From positions 62,001 through 126,000 of the forward strand of contig NZ_JABWQX020000001.1 of NCBI RefSeq assembly GCF_014268655.2: a DNA stretch of 64,000 nt, read 5' to 3'. Origin of the DNA: Pseudomonas marvdashtae (GTDB lineage Bacteria; Pseudomonadota; Gammaproteobacteria; Pseudomonadales; Pseudomonadaceae). This document shows, piece after piece, positions 22,129-32,562 of the stretch; positions within the stretch are counted from its first letter, which is position 1, and every line of letters begins with the position of its first letter. The position numbers and the translations under genes are program-made. Below the pieces are notes generated by a model. That model was not told the DNA's origin. It worked only from the letters and a program-made list of their open reading frames with translations, and searched no databases.

Positions 22129-23295
22129 ATGTCGGCCACCAAGAAGCCTGTAAATACTCCGTTGCACTTGCTCCAACAACTCTCGGGCAGCTTGCTCGAA
22201 CATCTGGAAAATGCCTGCTCCCAAGCCCTGGCTGATGCTGAAAAACTGCTCGCCAAACTGGAAAAGCAACGCGGTAAGGCGCAGGAAAAACTGCACAAGT
22301 CGCGCACCAAGCTGCAAGACGCTGCAACCGCCGGCAAGGCCAAGGCACAAGCCAAGGCCAAGGACGGCGTGAAAGAACTCGAAAACCTGCTCGATGCCTT
22401 GAAGGATCGTCAATCCGAAACCCGCGCGTACATCCTCCAGCTCAAACGTGATGCCCAGGAAAGCCTGAAGCTGGCCCAAGGTGTCGGTCGCGTCCAGGAA
22501 GCTGCGAGCAAGGCGCTGAGTCTTCGTGCTGCCAAGCCTGCCGCTGTATCGGCCAAAAAACCGGCCGCTAAACCTGTCGCGGCAAAACCCGCAGCCAAGG
22601 TGGTTGCCAAGCCGGCCGTCAAGGCTGTGGCAAAAGCGCCTGGCAAGCCGGCGGCCAAACCTGCCGCGAAAAAAACCGCTGCCGCCAGCGCTGTGAAACC
22701 TGTCGCGAAAACGGCCTCCACCAAGGTTGCCGCCAAGCCTGCGGCAAAAACCGCGGCCGCCAAACCTGCTGCCGTCAAGCCTGCTGCAAAAGCAACCGCC
22801 AAACCGGTTGCCAAGCCTGCCGCTAAGACCGTCGCCGCCAAACCCGCTGCGACGAAAACTGCTGCTGCCAAACCTGCTGCCAAACCTGCTGCCAAAGCAA
22901 CTGCAAAACCTGCCGCTGCCAAACCGGCAACCAAGCCTGCGGCAACCAAGACTGCTGCTGCGAAACCCGCCGCGGCCAAGTCAGTTGCCAAGCCTGCGGC
23001 CAAGCCAACTGCTGCCAAGGCTGCGGCCAAGGCTGCGGCTAAACCCGCTGCCAAGCCTGCTGCGAAACCCGCCGCGACCAAGCCGGCCGCTGCAAAACCT
23101 GCTGCCAAGCCCGCTGCGAAGCCGGCCGTGAAGAAGCCCGTTGCGGCAAAACCGGCGGCTGCTCCAGCTGCCAAGCCTGCGGCTCCAGCAACCACGCCAG
23201 CAGCGACACCCGCTCCTGCGGCGAGCACGCCAGCACCGGCGCTGAATCCAAGCGTCGCCACGGCATCGAGCACCACGACACCCAGCGCTTCTTAA
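22129..23295 (+). CDS. algP: AlgP, histone H1-like KPAA-repeat protein
   Basis: A 388-residue protein. Residues 1-130 are a conserved helical domain (LHLLQQLSGSLLEHLENACSQAL, then Lys-rich helices). From about residue 135 to 345 the sequence is nearly pure repeats of the type KPAAK/KPAAAK, giving a very basic, disordered tail like eukaryotic histone H1; the final ~40 residues are Ala/Pro/Thr/Ser-rich. In P. aeruginosa AlgP (AlgR3) is a DNA-binding regulator of alginate genes. The ATG has a perfect AGGAGG. The repeat DNA invites length change between strains. Confidence 0.93.
   Translation: MSATKKPVNTPLHLLQQLSGSLLEHLENACSQALADAEKLLAKLEKQRGKAQEKLHKSRTKLQDAATAGKAKAQAKAKDGVKELENLLDALKDRQSETRAYILQLKRDAQESLKLAQGVGRVQEAASKALSLRAAKPAAVSAKKPAAKPVAAKPAAKVVAKPAVKAVAKAPGKPAAKPAAKKTAAASAVKPVAKTASTKVAAKPAAKTAAAKPAAVKPAAKATAKPVAKPAAKTVAAKPAATKTAAAKPAAKPAAKATAKPAAAKPATKPAATKTAAAKPAAAKSVAKPAAKPTAAKAAAKAAAKPAAKPAAKPAATKPAAAKPAAKPAAKPAVKKPVAAKPAAAPAAKPAAPATTPAATPAPAASTPAPALNPSVATASSTTTPSAS
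22540..23170 (+). repeat. Tandem codon-level repeat encoding KPAA units in algP
   Basis: About 630 bases of degenerate 12-15 base units (AAACCTGCTGCC, AAGCCTGCGGCC and similar). Codons vary between units, so the DNA repeat is imperfect while the protein repeat is nearly exact. Confidence 0.9.
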
Positions 23296-27184: not shown

Positions 27185-27928
27185 TCAGCGCAGGATCACC
27201 GGAACGGTATCCCTCGGCAGGTTATTACGCTGCACCGGCTCGCCAGCCTGTTCATGGCTCGGGCCGCCGAGCTGCTCGCTCATCTGCCGCGCCACGTCCT
27301 CTCCCAGGGCCTTGGACACCTCACGTACCACCCGCGGACGATTGAGGCTTATACGCACGTCCCGATGGTTCAACAGCTTGGTATCCTGGCCTTCGCCCAT
27401 GGCGGTGAAAGCCGAGGTGATTTCAAAGGTCTTGGTATTGATCAAGCTGAAATCGGCCACCAGCGTCAGCGCAAGCACAGCCGAGTAACTGTCTGCAGTG
27501 CCGAGTTCGTTGATGTCACGGGTGAAGTCGATGTCCGACACGGTGCCGAACAGCACGTAGTCGGCGCCCTTGAAGTTACCCGCCTTGATTCGCTTGATCA
27601 CGTCGTAGACGTCGCCCTTGGACGATGCGGTATACGGCGTGCCTTGCACCAGCTGGAACATCCCGCTGCGCAGGATTTCACCCTTGATGTCACCGGTAAA
27701 CTTGCGCAGTTCACCTTGCTCGATGTAGCTGCTGGTGGCTTCCATCTCGTCGTAGCTCGACGAAGCGCTGGCGCTGTAGCCGTTCGCCTGGAAATTGCTC
27801 TGGGCCGAAACCGTATGGATGTATTCCTCCACGCGTTCCTGATACGCCAGGTCAGTCACCGCCACTTTTGGGGCCGCCTGCGCGCTGAATGCGCAAGCCA
27901 GGGCCATTATGCCGATCCATGTGCGCAT
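27185..27928 (-). CDS. Periplasmic LpoB/CsgG-like protein
   Basis: A 247-residue exported protein. The signal peptide MRTWIGIMALACAFSAQA has an AQA cut site and no lipobox. The mature part contains a CsgG/LpoB-type alpha/beta domain: KVAVTDLAYQ, then a helix with LRKFTGDIKGEILRSGMFQLVQG and the core strands GADYVLFGTVSDIDFTRD, VLALTLVADFSLINTKTFEITSAFTAMG. The first gene to its 5' side is an LpoB-like lipoprotein only three bases away, so both likely act together in the envelope. The function is not known. It is the last gene of the four-gene cluster. Confidence 0.78.
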   Translation of the reverse strand: MRTWIGIMALACAFSAQAAPKVAVTDLAYQERVEEYIHTVSAQSNFQANGYSASASSSYDEMEATSSYIEQGELRKFTGDIKGEILRSGMFQLVQGTPYTASSKGDVYDVIKRIKAGNFKGADYVLFGTVSDIDFTRDINELGTADSYSAVLALTLVADFSLINTKTFEITSAFTAMGEGQDTKLLNHRDVRISLNRPRVVREVSKALGEDVARQMSEQLGGPSHEQAGEPVQRNNLPRDTVPVILR

Positions 27929-27931
27929 GGG

Positions 27932-28519
27932 TTAGCGCTCCGTCGTCTTGCGGATTTCTTTCTCGTCCATCCATTCGGCCAGACCGCTTTCAACGTCGAT
28001 CAATTGCAGGCTGAATTTGTAGAAGACGTCCTTGTAGTCTTCGCTGCGCTTGACGATCGAGCTGATGGAACCCTCGATGCGATATTTGGCGGCGATCATG
28101 TTGCCGGTCTTGGCCACGGTGCTCTTCTTGTACAGGCCGCTCTGGTTTTGCAGCTTGAGCTGGTCGACCTGGCTGTCCATGGCGTTGTTGTCGCTGGCAA
28201 AGCGTGCGGCGCCGGTCTTCATCAGTTGGGTCTTGATGCTGGTGGTGATTTCGCGGGTATCGATGTACTCGCTGGTCTTGTTCTTCACGTCATAGACCTG
28301 GACCACCGGACGGCCCTGCAAGACGCCGGACTGGGCGAGGGAGCGGGTCATGGATTCGGCGATCATCTGCAGGTCGGTGGAGCCGAACTCGTTGGTGACG
28401 GTTTCCACGGCCTTGGTGTCGCCATAGCTGATGTTCTTGTTGCCCAGGACCGGTGAATTGTTGGCGCAGCCGCTAACGAGCAGGGCGACGAGGGCAAGGG
28501 ATGAAATGCGTACAAACAT
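27932..28519 (-). CDS. LpoB-like lipoprotein (penicillin-binding protein activator family)
   Basis: A 195-residue lipoprotein. The signal peptide MFVRISSLALVALLVSGC carries the lipobox with Cys18, followed by the LpoB-family pattern YGDTKAVETVTNEFGSTDLQMIAESMTRSLAQSG, RPVVQVYDVKNKTSEYIDTREITTSIKTQL and AKYRIEGSISSIVKRSEDYKDVFYKFSLQLIDVESGLAEW. E. coli LpoB activates PBP1b from the outer membrane; it has a long disordered linker after the Cys that is nearly absent here. P. aeruginosa uses the unrelated LpoP for PBP1b, so the partner of this protein is unclear. Confidence 0.82.
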   Translation of the reverse strand: MFVRISSLALVALLVSGCANNSPVLGNKNISYGDTKAVETVTNEFGSTDLQMIAESMTRSLAQSGVLQGRPVVQVYDVKNKTSEYIDTREITTSIKTQLMKTGAARFASDNNAMDSQVDQLKLQNQSGLYKKSTVAKTGNMIAAKYRIEGSISSIVKRSEDYKDVFYKFSLQLIDVESGLAEWMDEKEIRKTTER

Positions 28520-28569
28520 GTGGGGTGCTCTCAAATAACTGCAAAAAAGGTTTTTTTGTCCGGCAAGCC

Positions 28570-28938
28570 TTACGGGGTATTGATTTCCAAACGGAAATCC
28601 ACCGCCTTGGGTGTTGGCGCGATGGCCGGCAAGAAGCGCGTCTGTTCACCGTATAGCGTCAGGGTTTTCCAGCTTTCCTCTTCAGCGATCGGGAACCCTT
28701 CCGGCCCCAGCCAGGCAAAGCGGTAGTACAGGGTCTTGTTGTTGTAGCTGGTGTTGCTCAACTGCACGTTGACGGTCATGTAGCCGTTTTCCCGGGCGAC
28801 GCGCATGGCACCGACCACGATATTCTTGGTCTTGCCCATCGCCACGACCTTGCTGGCGGCGCTGCCGGGTTCCGGCGGTGGGGTGGCGCAACCGGCCAGC
28901 AAGGCCAGGACGCCGACGGCGATCAGTTTTAAACGCAT
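28570..28938 (-). CDS. YcfL family lipoprotein
   Basis: A 122-residue lipoprotein of the YcfL (DUF1425) family. The signal MRLKLIAVGVLALLAGC has Cys17 in the lipobox, then a Pro/Ser-rich linker and an immunoglobulin-like beta sandwich (MTVNVQLSNTSYNNKTLYYRFAWLGPEGFPI, KAVDFRLEINTP). In E. coli ycfL lies directly before lpoB, as here, but its function is unknown. It lies 50 bases before the LpoB-like gene. Confidence 0.85.
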   Translation of the reverse strand: MRLKLIAVGVLALLAGCATPPPEPGSAASKVVAMGKTKNIVVGAMRVARENGYMTVNVQLSNTSYNNKTLYYRFAWLGPEGFPIAEEESWKTLTLYGEQTRFLPAIAPTPKAVDFRLEINTP

Positions 28939-28956
28939 GTGAACAAGACTCCGTTC

Positions 28957-30351
28957 TTAAGGTTGCTTGAGAGCGATGGCGGTGGGGTTGGCGCTGGGGA
29001 TCACCTGGGCCGCGAGGCCGCCGGCGAAGACCTGGTTGCCCACCGCCCGCAGGCTGATGACTTGGTAACGCTGGTCGATCTTGACCTTGACCACCGAGCC
29101 GCCTACCGCACTGGGCAGGGTGACTTGGTGCTCGCCCTTCTTCAGGCGCAGGCGCACCACTTGGGTGTAATCCGGCAGGGTGCGCCAGGTCCGGGTGTCG
29201 GCGCCTTCGAGCACGGCCGAGGTGATGCCCACGGCCAGGCCGGCCAGGGGGTTGGTTTCGTTGATCTGTTTTTGCGCCACGCCACGGGTAATCGCCCGCA
29301 CGGAAGTGCGCAGGATGATCCCCGGCATGTCATCGCGCAGGGCCCGGCGCGACATGGCGGTGGTGCTGTTGAGCTGGGTCAGGTCCAGCTGGCGACCGTC
29401 GACGCCGATCTGGGTAAAGGTAGCGGTGGACGTGTCTGGCTTGATCAGCGGGAACGACAACGGCGTGATGACCAGATTTCCACTGATGGGCAAGGGCAGC
29501 GGGATGCGGATTGAATCCCGGGACGGCGCCAGGCCGCTCTGCACCACGATCAGAATATCGCTGTCGTCGTCCTTGGCGGCAGGCTTGTCGAGGTTGAGCA
29601 GCGCCTGCTCCAGCAGCGGTGTGTTGGGGCGCAGTTCGGCGGCTTTGCGATAACCCGGTGCGGCCAGGTCTTTTTCACCCAGGGCTTCGTAGACGAAGCC
29701 GGCCAGGTAATGGCTGAACGCGCTCTGATAACTGTTTTTCAGGCTCACCACTTCAGGGGCGTCCAGGCTCGCCACCGGATAACCTCGCAGGTCCTTGTAT
29801 TCGGTCTTGACCCCTTGCTTCTCGGCGTCCTCCTCGCGCTTGAGATATTCCTTGTCGCGCAAGTCGGCAATCACGGCTTCGCGCTCGTGGGTCTTCTTGA
29901 TCTGCGTCCGGGCGCCGTCGAAATCGTTCACGGCCAGCAAGTTCAAGGCCATCTGCGTGGTGAGCATGACTTTTTCATAGTCGTAGCCCTCGTAGCGCCG
30001 GACTTTGTCGTTGACCAGAAAACTGCCGAACTGCGCCAGGTACTTGGCGGTATCGAGCTTGACGGCGTCTTCCCACTGCCCGACTTGCTGGTCGGCGCTG
30101 CCCCAGGCGGTCTGGCTGCCAGAGAGGTCGCCCTTGGCGCGCAGCAGCTCACCCTTTTCGAAGAAATAGAGCAGGTCTTTGTCTTTGCTGGTGTTGTTTT
30201 TTTCCAGCAGGGTCAACGCCGCGTCGACGTTGCCAGAGGCAAGTTGCTGATTGGTCTGGGCCAGTTCGCTGTCGTAGTTGCGAAACGCCGAGCAGCCGGA
30301 CAGCAAGGTGATCGCGCCGAGGGCGACCGAGAAAAGGGCACGGGATGCCAT
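28957..30351 (-). CDS. COG3014 family lipoprotein
   Basis: A 464-residue lipoprotein (Cys20 in the lipobox of AITLLSGCSAF). The N-terminal half is helical with TPR-like repeats (LASGNVDAALTLLEKN, GELLRAKGDLSGSQTAW, YLAGFVYEALGEKDLAAPGYRKAAEL). The C-terminal half is mostly beta, containing QSGLAPSRDSIRIPLPLPISGNLVITPLSFPL. The family is known as COG3014, without a defined function. The ATG at 30351 has GGGAAGAAG at good spacing; a GTG two codons earlier is less well placed. It is the first gene of the four-gene envelope cluster. Confidence 0.85.
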   Translation of the reverse strand: MASRALFSVALGAITLLSGCSAFRNYDSELAQTNQQLASGNVDAALTLLEKNNTSKDKDLLYFFEKGELLRAKGDLSGSQTAWGSADQQVGQWEDAVKLDTAKYLAQFGSFLVNDKVRRYEGYDYEKVMLTTQMALNLLAVNDFDGARTQIKKTHEREAVIADLRDKEYLKREEDAEKQGVKTEYKDLRGYPVASLDAPEVVSLKNSYQSAFSHYLAGFVYEALGEKDLAAPGYRKAAELRPNTPLLEQALLNLDKPAAKDDDSDILIVVQSGLAPSRDSIRIPLPLPISGNLVITPLSFPLIKPDTSTATFTQIGVDGRQLDLTQLNSTTAMSRRALRDDMPGIILRTSVRAITRGVAQKQINETNPLAGLAVGITSAVLEGADTRTWRTLPDYTQVVRLRLKKGEHQVTLPSAVGGSVVKVKIDQRYQVISLRAVGNQVFAGGLAAQVIPSANPTAIALKQP

Positions 30352-30663
30352 GAACACTTCTTCCCTGAGTATCAGCCGGGTGTGCGGGTCGGGCTGGGGC
30401 GATCCACGGACAGGCGCTTGTGCGCCGTCGGTTCCTCAAATCCAGAGGAGCTGTTATGCCGTCTTCTAATAAGAAGGCGGCGCATTATAAGCAGTGGATT
30501 TGTTTGCGTAGTGGCTTTTTGATTTCTAAATGATGTTTTTGTGATGTCATCTTCAAAGCATGAAGATCCGATGAAAATGCTTGGGCAAAACACATCGGTG
30601 CTTGAGCCAAGCGCATTGGAAGTGAACAATGTGTTACTTCTTATTTCCGATCGAGAGTCATTC
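30352..30663. other. Divergent intergenic region, lipoprotein cluster / FTR1
   Basis: It contains a hairpin-forming palindrome (30458-30481, GCCGTCTTCT / AAGAAGGCGGC), then on the minus strand a perfect TATAAT (30489-30484) that could be the -10 of the lipoprotein cluster; no good -35 is visible. The right half (30490-30660) is AT-richer and should hold the FTR1 promoter. No clear Fur box was seen. Confidence 0.5.
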
Positions 30664-32562
30664 ATGACTGCCCCGTTTCGTTTTCTGGCCTGGTTGGCGT
30701 TGCCCTTGCTTGCGCTGTGCAGTGCCAACTTGCTGGCTGACCCTGTTGAAGGTGCGCCTCAGGCCCTGCATTTGTTGGATTACATCGGGGCGGATTACCC
30801 GGCGACTGTCGAGGCCGGAAAGGTCATCGACGAGGCTGAGTACCGTGAGCAACTTGAATTTACCGGGGCGTTGGAAGGGCTGGTCGGCGCACTGCCGGCC
30901 AAGCCGGAAAAGGCCGAGTTGAGTCAAGGCATCAATTCCTTGCGCAAGGCGATCACCGAGCGCCAGGACGGCGTTGACGTTTCCCACCTGGCGCGGCAGT
31001 TGGGCGCAAGGCTCGCCGTGGCGTATGAAGTCAGCCAGGCGCCGATCATCACCCCGGATCCGACCCGCGGTGCGCCGCTGTACGCCCAGCACTGCTCGGT
31101 CTGCCATGGTGACACCGGCGCTGGCGACGGCCCGGCGGGCGTCGGCCTGGAGCCGCCGCCCGCGAACCTGCGCGACGGTCAACGCCTGGATCGGCTGAGC
31201 CTCTATGCGATCTACAACACATTGGGCATGGGCGTCGAAGGCACCGACATGCCGGCCTTCGCCGACCAGTTCGATGACCGTCAGCGCTGGGACCTGGCGA
31301 CCTACATTGCCAGCTTCAGCGCCGACCCGGCTGCAGCCAAGGGCGAGCAGACCTTCAACCTTGCCGATCTGGCCCGCCAGACCCCGGCCGAAATCCTCGC
31401 CGCCCAGGGGCCTGCGGCAGCGGCGACATTCCGGGCCCAGCGGGCCCAGCCACCACAAGTGCAGCGCGGTCCGGCGCAGTTGCTCGACTATACCGCCGCG
31501 ACATTGGATAAAAGCATCGCGGCGTATCGTGCCGGTGATCATGACCAAGCCTACGACTTATCGGTAGCGGCGTATCTGGAAGGCTTCGAGCTGGTGGAAA
31601 GCTCCCTGGATAACGTCGACGCCAACGTGCGCAAGGACACCGAAAAGGCCTTGATGGCGTTCCGTCAGTCCTTGCAGGATGGCTTGCCAATCGAGCAGGC
31701 CGAACAGCGTCTGGACATGGCCAAGGCCAAGTTGAAGGAATCCGCGGGCCTGCTGGGTGGCGATGGCTTGAGCTGGTCGCTGAGCTACATCTCGGGCTTG
31801 CTGATCTTGTTGCGCGAAGGCCTGGAGGCGATTCTGGTACTGGCGGCTATCCTGGCGTTCCTGCGCAACACCGGGCAGCAATCGGCGGTTCGCAGCGTCA
31901 ACGTCGGTTGGGGCCTGGCACTGCTTGCCGGCCTGGCGACCTGGGGGCTGGCCGCGTATGTGATCGACGTCAGCGGCGCGCAGCGGGAGCTGCTTGAAGG
32001 TGCAACCGCGTTGTTCGCCAGTGTGATGGTGCTGTGGCTGGGCGTGTGGATGCACGACCGACGCCACGCGGCGGCCTGGCAGGATTACATCAAGAGCAGC
32101 CTGGTGGGCGGCGGTGGTCGTTTCGGTTTTGCGATCCTGGCGTTCTTCTCGGTCTATCGGGAGCTGTTCGAAGTGATCCTGTTTTACGAAACCCTATGGC
32201 TGCAGGCCGGTCCTGCCGGGCATGACGCCGTGCTGGCGGGCGGCGCGACGGCGCTGGTCCTGCTGGTAGGGTTGGCCTGGGTGATTTTGCGAGGTTCGGC
32301 GAAACTGCCGCTGGCGCTGTTCTTCAGCATCAACGCTGCACTGCTATGCGCGTTGTCGGTGGTGTTCGCCGGGCATGGGGTGAAGGCCTTGCAGGAAGCC
32401 GGGATCTTCGGCACGCACCCGGTGGCCTTTTTCGACTTCGATTGGCTGGGCATCCATGCCGATGCATATTCACTGGCGGCCCAGGCCGTGGCGATCACGG
32501 CCATCATTGTGTTGTACGGGCGTAGCTGGGTGGCGGAGAAGCGTCGAGTTCAGGTTTCCTGA
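30664..32562 (+). CDS. Cytochrome c - FTR1 family iron permease
   Basis: A 632-residue protein. After a signal peptide (MTAPFRFLAWLALPLLALCSANLLA), a periplasmic helical region encloses a c-type cytochrome domain (CSVCH haem motif near residue 146, distal Met in GTDMPAF near 194). A second helical region leads to an FTR1 permease domain of about seven helices with both REGLE motifs: LREGLEAILVLAAILAF near residue 385 and YRELFEVILFYETL near 499. It probably oxidises Fe(II) and imports Fe(III) across the inner membrane. The ATG at 30664 starts the signal peptide; the frame is open further upstream. Confidence 0.9.
   Translation: MTAPFRFLAWLALPLLALCSANLLADPVEGAPQALHLLDYIGADYPATVEAGKVIDEAEYREQLEFTGALEGLVGALPAKPEKAELSQGINSLRKAITERQDGVDVSHLARQLGARLAVAYEVSQAPIITPDPTRGAPLYAQHCSVCHGDTGAGDGPAGVGLEPPPANLRDGQRLDRLSLYAIYNTLGMGVEGTDMPAFADQFDDRQRWDLATYIASFSADPAAAKGEQTFNLADLARQTPAEILAAQGPAAAATFRAQRAQPPQVQRGPAQLLDYTAATLDKSIAAYRAGDHDQAYDLSVAAYLEGFELVESSLDNVDANVRKDTEKALMAFRQSLQDGLPIEQAEQRLDMAKAKLKESAGLLGGDGLSWSLSYISGLLILLREGLEAILVLAAILAFLRNTGQQSAVRSVNVGWGLALLAGLATWGLAAYVIDVSGAQRELLEGATALFASVMVLWLGVWMHDRRHAAAWQDYIKSSLVGGGGRFGFAILAFFSVYRELFEVILFYETLWLQAGPAGHDAVLAGGATALVLLVGLAWVILRGSAKLPLALFFSINAALLCALSVVFAGHGVKALQEAGIFGTHPVAFFDFDWLGIHADAYSLAAQAVAITAIIVLYGRSWVAEKRRVQVS

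Follow-up and report, generated by a model that had tools for sequence, protein, structure and literature searches.

LpoB is a textbook outer-membrane regulator of peptidoglycan synthesis, and in Escherichia coli its gene lies in the order hinT-ycfL-lpoB-thiK-nagZ-ycfP. The E. coli protein is described as reaching PBP1B, a penicillin-binding protein (PBP), via a disordered stretch of 145 Å (PMC6220978), and an older statement, for which a 100-bit cut-off was used, holds that LpoB evolved recently and does not occur outside the enterobacteria (PMC3060616). Among the other regulators of this kind, LpoA is reported to be extended across the periplasm by tetratricopeptide repeats (TPRs), and LpoP, likewise an outer-membrane lipoprotein regulator of a UB2H-bearing PBP1b, has a TPR fold and not the LpoB fold (PMC7267771). 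The subject of the present analysis is a cluster of four genes at 27185..30351 of a 64,000-nucleotide stretch of Pseudomonas marvdashtae DNA (the window; contig NZ_JABWQX020000001.1, positions 62,001 to 126,000), encoding, in order of transcription, a TPR lipoprotein of the COG3014 family, a YcfL lipoprotein, an LpoB-family lipoprotein and an exported protein designated gene 4. Comparison of related loci indicates that the LpoB family is much broader than the enterobacteria and is usually encoded beside COG3014, the E. coli version appearing as a stripped-down one.

As in E. coli, homologues of YcfL and LpoB are encoded side by side and in the same order in the window. The differences lie in COG3014 ahead of ycfL, in the FGSTDLQ motif of the LpoB homologue (starting at its residue 50), in the added exported gene, and in the flanks, which are a LysE gene and an FTR1 gene and not the hinT and thiK of an E. 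coli-type neighbourhood.

Inheritance of the gene set in Pseudomonas and beyond

In a sample of 119 Pseudomonas genomes, COG3014, YcfL and full-length LpoB are each found in 68 and gene 4 in 69, with LpoB matches at E <= 1e-3 rising to 75 genomes when short and weak ones are counted. The genomes holding all four genes are the identical 68, the set being all-or-none, and in every one of the 68 a single contig carries the genes in an unchanged order, with neighbouring matched stretches at most 350 bases apart. The four genes are present or absent as a unit in Pseudomonas; the scattered distribution that the original prediction of a four-gene envelope system had to fear did not occur, and chance clustering is rejected by the identity of the presence sets. 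One of the 51 genomes without the module retains a relic (G229:C1; L185:5787-6032), in which LpoB residues 126-191, with a stop codon inside the match, are directly followed by gene 4 residues 177-196, and no further piece of the four genes was found in the 11 kb around it. Some assembled sets contain broken genes, namely COG3014 in G300 (one stop) and G217 (three frames), and gene 4 in G251 (two frames).

Duplications are also seen within Pseudomonas. In 28 of the 68 module genomes, the cluster copy of COG3014 has a second, tandem copy of 54-63% identity upstream of it (for example L186:2386-5452). In G194 (C4:1359802-1361210; L184:7851-9214), the intact gene 4 is followed by three extra pieces of its C-terminal part, open reading frames (ORFs) of 97 amino acids arranged in tandem, one per 535 bases.

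Beyond the genus, 184 genomes drawn evenly from the class include 39 with COG3014, 41 with LpoB over 80 bits and 37 with both, a coincidence with a Fisher p of 8e-32 when kinship is ignored. In the two genomes with COG3014 only, the matches span just 44 and 59 residues within the TPR region; in two of the four with LpoB only, a profile search places COG3014 next to LpoB. YcfL is present in 12 of the 184 genomes, and lies within the cluster in 11 of those 12. A scan of one genome per species with a COG3014 alignment, whose query biased it toward the YcfL-type set, yielded 189 confirmed relatives, and the best 80 of these were retained. These best 80 loci come from Gammaproteobacteria, Geobacter and other Desulfuromonadales, Brocadia and other Planctomycetes, Omnitrophota, Lentisphaerae/Verrucomicrobia and one CSSED10-310; LpoB follows COG3014 in 77 of them, the other three stopping at contig ends, with YcfL in 70 and CsgG-type exported genes in 34. 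COG3014-LpoB pairs are spread over several phyla. The original prediction had suggested that the cluster may be an undescribed system, which agrees with four genes that behave as one unit and with the literature searched, where no description of COG3014 was found.

Clusters without YcfL in other Gammaproteobacteria resemble that of the window in that an LpoB-family gene with a short tether adjoins COG3014, and differ in that LpoB lies upstream of COG3014, followed in several by an LPP20-like lipoprotein (PF02169 in the one scanned). The order LpoB-COG3014 is found in L012, L018, L022 and L025, with the LPP20-like lipoprotein in place of YcfL in L012, L018 and L022, of which L012 was the one scanned. 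Additional small genes accompany some modules. In 22 of the best 80 loci a small gene follows the module (for example L119:8563-9045), with a lipobox in 18 of the 22; it is of Geobacter type in the loci shown, and the one product scanned is an Lcl_C-domain protein. In 11 of the best 80, Colwellia-like and Pseudoalteromonas in the loci shown, another small protein family takes this place (for example L161:8645-9130), the one scanned being a glycine-zipper protein.

Tether length and the origin of the E. coli locus

The tether of an LpoB protein was taken as the residues from the lipid-bearing cysteine to the first strand (LLVDSVNNRT in E. coli), with all distances from one MAFFT alignment of 193 unique rows, and an LpoB gene was called adjacent if COG3014 lay within 2.8 kb on the same strand. 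COG3014-adjacent LpoBs (n=155) have tethers of 49-56 residues with a median of 52, after removal of two gene 4 rows (L186_6461, L035_3940) from the 157 adjacent rows and with the distance for L008 taken as 53 and not 61, where the cysteine had been mis-picked. LpoBs without COG3014 found nearby (n=28) have tethers of 55-141 residues with a median of 68.5; eight of 36 non-adjacent rows (52-56) were set aside here, as their locus is cut or COG3014 lies slightly further off or on another contig (L075, G084), and with these kept the range is 52-141. One long distance, that of L274 (116), probably reflects a mis-picked cysteine and was left in the counts. Where COG3014 is a neighbour, the LpoB tether is short and constant in length; most LpoBs without COG3014 have a longer one. 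The tether of the window LpoB is 55 residues, against 83 in E. coli, and so is not of the long E. coli type. An FGSTDLQ-like motif 18-28 residues after the cysteine is found in 141 of 156 adjacent rows (one being a gene 4 piece) and in none of 26 long-tether rows, a contrast that is descriptive, the pattern having been written from the adjacent rows.

The synteny of the E. coli locus bears on how the two LpoB types are related. Locus L291, assigned to Vibrio on the identity of its LpoB with a protein named from that genus, reads hinT-COG3014-ycfL-lpoB-thiK-ycfP and shares hinT, thiK and ycfP with E. coli; hinT is also found beside COG3014-ycfL-lpoB in L284, L285 and L293. In the tree, the closest relatives of E. 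coli LpoB belong to family f166. Six loci there (L254, L256-L260) carry hinT-ycfL-lpoB and lack COG3014, and the five of them that no contig end truncates also have thiK; two small genomes (L255, L261) have hinT near lpoB without a YcfL match. Given L291 and the f166 loci, the E. coli locus reads most simply as the module minus COG3014, hinT-ycfL-lpoB-thiK probably being derived from hinT-COG3014-ycfL-lpoB-thiK by loss of that gene. The original prediction had taken the E. coli ycfL-lpoB pair as the starting point to which extra genes were joined; Vibrio synteny argues the reverse, and a newly extended E. coli pair is rejected in favour of a broader arrangement of which the E. coli pair is most simply a reduced form.

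Both LpoB types can occur in one genome. In family f173 (L276, L277, L280-L283; L274, L278, L279), several genomes hold a long-tether LpoB plus a COG3014-linked LpoB elsewhere, and the long-tether gene lies between hinT and thiK in L274, L278 and L279.

A proposed platform for short-tethered LpoB and competing explanations

The preferred interpretation, to which about an even chance is given, is that the cluster is an ancestral-type LpoB operon in which COG3014 and YcfL provide a platform for a short-tethered LpoB, and that it is accessory in Pseudomonas. The module, comprising the TPR lipoprotein COG3014, YcfL, the short-tethered LpoB and an exported CsgG-type protein, would act at the outer membrane. 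There COG3014, with YcfL, would fix LpoB and direct it to its wall-synthesis partner, either a class A PBP or some other; in E. coli, the long disordered linker would have come to do this work. The comparative pattern of co-inheritance and tether length is well supported; the COG3014-LpoB complex and the positioning of LpoB we infer. By simple scaling from the 145 Å E. coli tether, a short-tether LpoB would reach roughly 50-70 Å, and a precedent for a periplasm-spanning part is the TPR-extended LpoA (PMC7267771). A more sweeping version, offered tentatively and with clearly less confidence, is that in most bacteria possessing the family the TPR lipoprotein COG3014 (with YcfL) carries short-tethered LpoB from the outer membrane to its target in wall synthesis, and that the Enterobacteriaceae swapped this subunit for a long linker inside LpoB itself. 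If so, LpoB proteins would be wall regulators of ancient origin, shared by several phyla, and would not have arisen recently in enterobacteria. The comparative result gives the uncharacterised lipoproteins COG3014 and YcfL a concrete place, and comparison of short and long tethers makes the reach of an outer-membrane lipoprotein to an inner-membrane synthase testable.

Several observations weigh against a platform. A short tether may suffice alone, should about 20 tether residues be enough for Vibrio LpoB to work on PBP1b, and short tethers are found apart from COG3014: L262 is hinT-linked without COG3014 beside it and has a tether of 55, the LpoB of L179 (G065) has one of 56 with no COG3014 found nearby (these being the two non-adjacent tethers below 59), and in G084 COG3014 is on another contig than the short-tether LpoB (L075/L182). 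Only a few lineages, most of them Enterobacterales families, supply the long-tether rows, so the tether contrast amounts to a handful of events; the tree shows two groups, with a single origin not rejected (p-AU 0.586), and trees cannot separate loss of COG3014 from its gain. Furthermore, YcfL is not a constant part of the module, because it is missing from most LpoB-COG3014 genomes of the class sample, where the LPP20-like lipoprotein after COG3014 replaces it in some loci (one scanned).

What the module might do in Pseudomonas depends on how PBP1b is served there. The PBP1b of the source genome has a UB2H domain (E 4.5e-24), and directly downstream of its gene is that of a TPR lipoprotein (G000:C2:320847-321563), termed LpoP-like on the strength of position, lipobox and TPR, and not of the P. 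aeruginosa sequence. The original prediction's view that Pseudomonas PBP1b works with LpoP is borne out in that the LpoP-like gene adjoins PBP1b here and is matched in all 119 Pseudomonas genomes. No gene of the cluster is a TPR lipoprotein encoded next to PBP1b; the LpoP-like gene is encoded away from the cluster, and is present in 119 of 119 genomes as against 68 of 119 for the module. Since it is also present in the 51 genomes without the module, the module is probably not what chiefly activates PBP1b in Pseudomonas, and would form an accessory layer of envelope control, with PBP1b served by LpoP.

Vibrio supplies the genetic evidence. V. cholerae LpoB is of the short-tether type, and nine g186 genomes of the order sample (g186 being Vibrio via L291) have one PF13036 match each. 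In V. cholerae, mutations in mrcA and lpoA are reported to be synthetically lethal with mrcB and lpoB, fitting a PBP1B pathway (PMC4063736). If the published lpoB is the short-tether gene, short-tether LpoB would act in the PBP1B pathway, and a role on a class A PBP is therefore possible; that a short tether precludes all work on PBP1b is rejected, since the same genetics argues against it (PMC4063736). The original prediction expected another partner for the LpoB-like protein of Pseudomonas, which may act on PBP1b, on another PBP or on neither.

It is possible, though we regard it as doubtful, that the module had an older envelope job unrelated to PBPs, for instance in an outer-membrane CsgG-type channel or surface-assembly complex made up of two CsgG/LpoB-fold proteins and two lipoproteins, and that PBP1b activation was gained later in the Vibrio/Enterobacteria lineage. 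Such a history would suit the CsgG-type exported proteins that accompany the module in 34 of the best 80 loci, seven of seven scanned matching PF03783 (CsgG) over the cut-off and some weakly FlgT or FlgO, as well as the presence of the module in Brocadia, Omnitrophota and Lentisphaerae, outside the LpoB/UB2H range given by Typas et al. (PMC3060616), and that of an LpoP-like gene in every Pseudomonas genome. It sits less well with the V. cholerae lpoB genetics, which links an LpoB homologue to PBP1B (PMC4063736), or with gene 4, which unlike CsgG is short and non-lipidated, has no PF03783 match at E <= 1, and gave an unusable AlphaFold model (predicted local distance difference test score, pLDDT, of 44). 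Gene 4 has a partial match to PF13036 (LpoB) of 21.5 bits against a cut-off of 22.3 (22.6 in a frame-aware genome search), and hhalign aligns it with the CsgG-type proteins of related loci at a probability of 94.4 over 146 columns and with the LpoB family at 89.7 over 64 columns. Gene 4 probably corresponds to the exported CsgG-type component found with the module elsewhere, in a form that has diverged in Pseudomonas.

That the short-tether LpoB activates PBP1b alone, parallel to LpoP in Pseudomonas and with COG3014, YcfL and gene 4 as operon passengers, seems unlikely. The UB2H domain of the source-genome PBP1b and the behaviour of V. cholerae lpoB as a PBP1B-pathway gene (PMC4063736) would both accommodate it, but passengers would hardly stay adjacent across phyla or vanish together from 51 of 119 Pseudomonas genomes, and the scaled reach of a short tether falls well below the 145 Å of E. 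coli (PMC6220978). Least probable by far is that these are ordinary conserved lipoprotein genes with no common function; the literature searched yielded no experimental data for COG3014, which would leave room for it, and it is disfavoured by the identical presence sets in 119 genomes, the same order across phyla and the joint loss seen in G229.

Features of the cluster and its surroundings

The four minus-strand ORFs lie where the original prediction had placed them, and its account of the products as exported, with three lipoboxes and a signal-like N-terminus ending in AQA, without lipid anchor, for gene 4, agrees with the sequence. The intergenic gaps are 18, 35 (50 if LpoB starts at ATG) and 3 bases, and these short gaps suggest a single transcription unit. 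The cluster showed no sigma-70-like promoter, and the six terminator-like hits there are at the shuffled level (4.5, standard deviation 2.5).

Coordinates of the cluster genes in the window
Feature	Position	Strand	Remarks
COG3014-family lipoprotein, 466 aa	28957-30357	minus	first gene in transcription order; GTG start
COG3014-family lipoprotein, alternative start	30351 (in-frame ATG)	minus	likely start; equals the end given in the original prediction
YcfL / DUF1425 lipoprotein, 122 aa	28570-28938	minus	second gene; PF07233
LpoB-family lipoprotein, 200 aa	27932-28534	minus	third gene; TTG start, alternative in-frame ATG at 28519
Gene 4, exported non-lipidated protein, 247 aa	27185-27928	minus	fourth gene; related to LpoB/CsgG-type domains

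The COG3014 protein has the lipobox LSGC with lipid-bearing Cys22, and Pfam gives TPR matches only, all below cut-off, over about residues 23-260. In its AlphaFold2 model (mean pLDDT 81.5; predicted template-modelling score 0.83), a TPR domain is predicted at the N-terminus (about 23-260), and the C-terminal beta/long-helix region (265-453) contains a conserved motif, ADxRxWxxLP, at residues 386-395. A protein search returned 2622 proteins at E <= 1e-3, and 'COG3014 family protein' is the NCBI name on many of the 120 relatives listed, by which name the protein is placed in the family. YcfL belongs to the YcfL/DUF1425 family by PF07233 (E 1e-20, 73.7 bits against a cut-off of 28.3) and by its lipobox (LAGC, lipid-bearing Cys17), and its relatives of solved structure are 3o0l (E 2.7e-6) and 4gio (E 9.1e-5). 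The third product is a member of the LpoB family by PF13036 (E 1.5e-41, 142.2 bits against 22.3) and NCBIfam TIGR02722 (140.1 bits against 110.55), and carries a lipoprotein signal with the lipobox VSGC and lipid-bearing Cys23.

Elsewhere in the window, the divergent neighbour of the cluster (30541-32562) encodes a cytochrome c domain fused to an FTR1 iron permease. The C-terminal part of the product of the ORF at 22129-23295 is repetitive and very rich in alanine, proline and lysine, and the protein presumably resembles those of the AlgP type.

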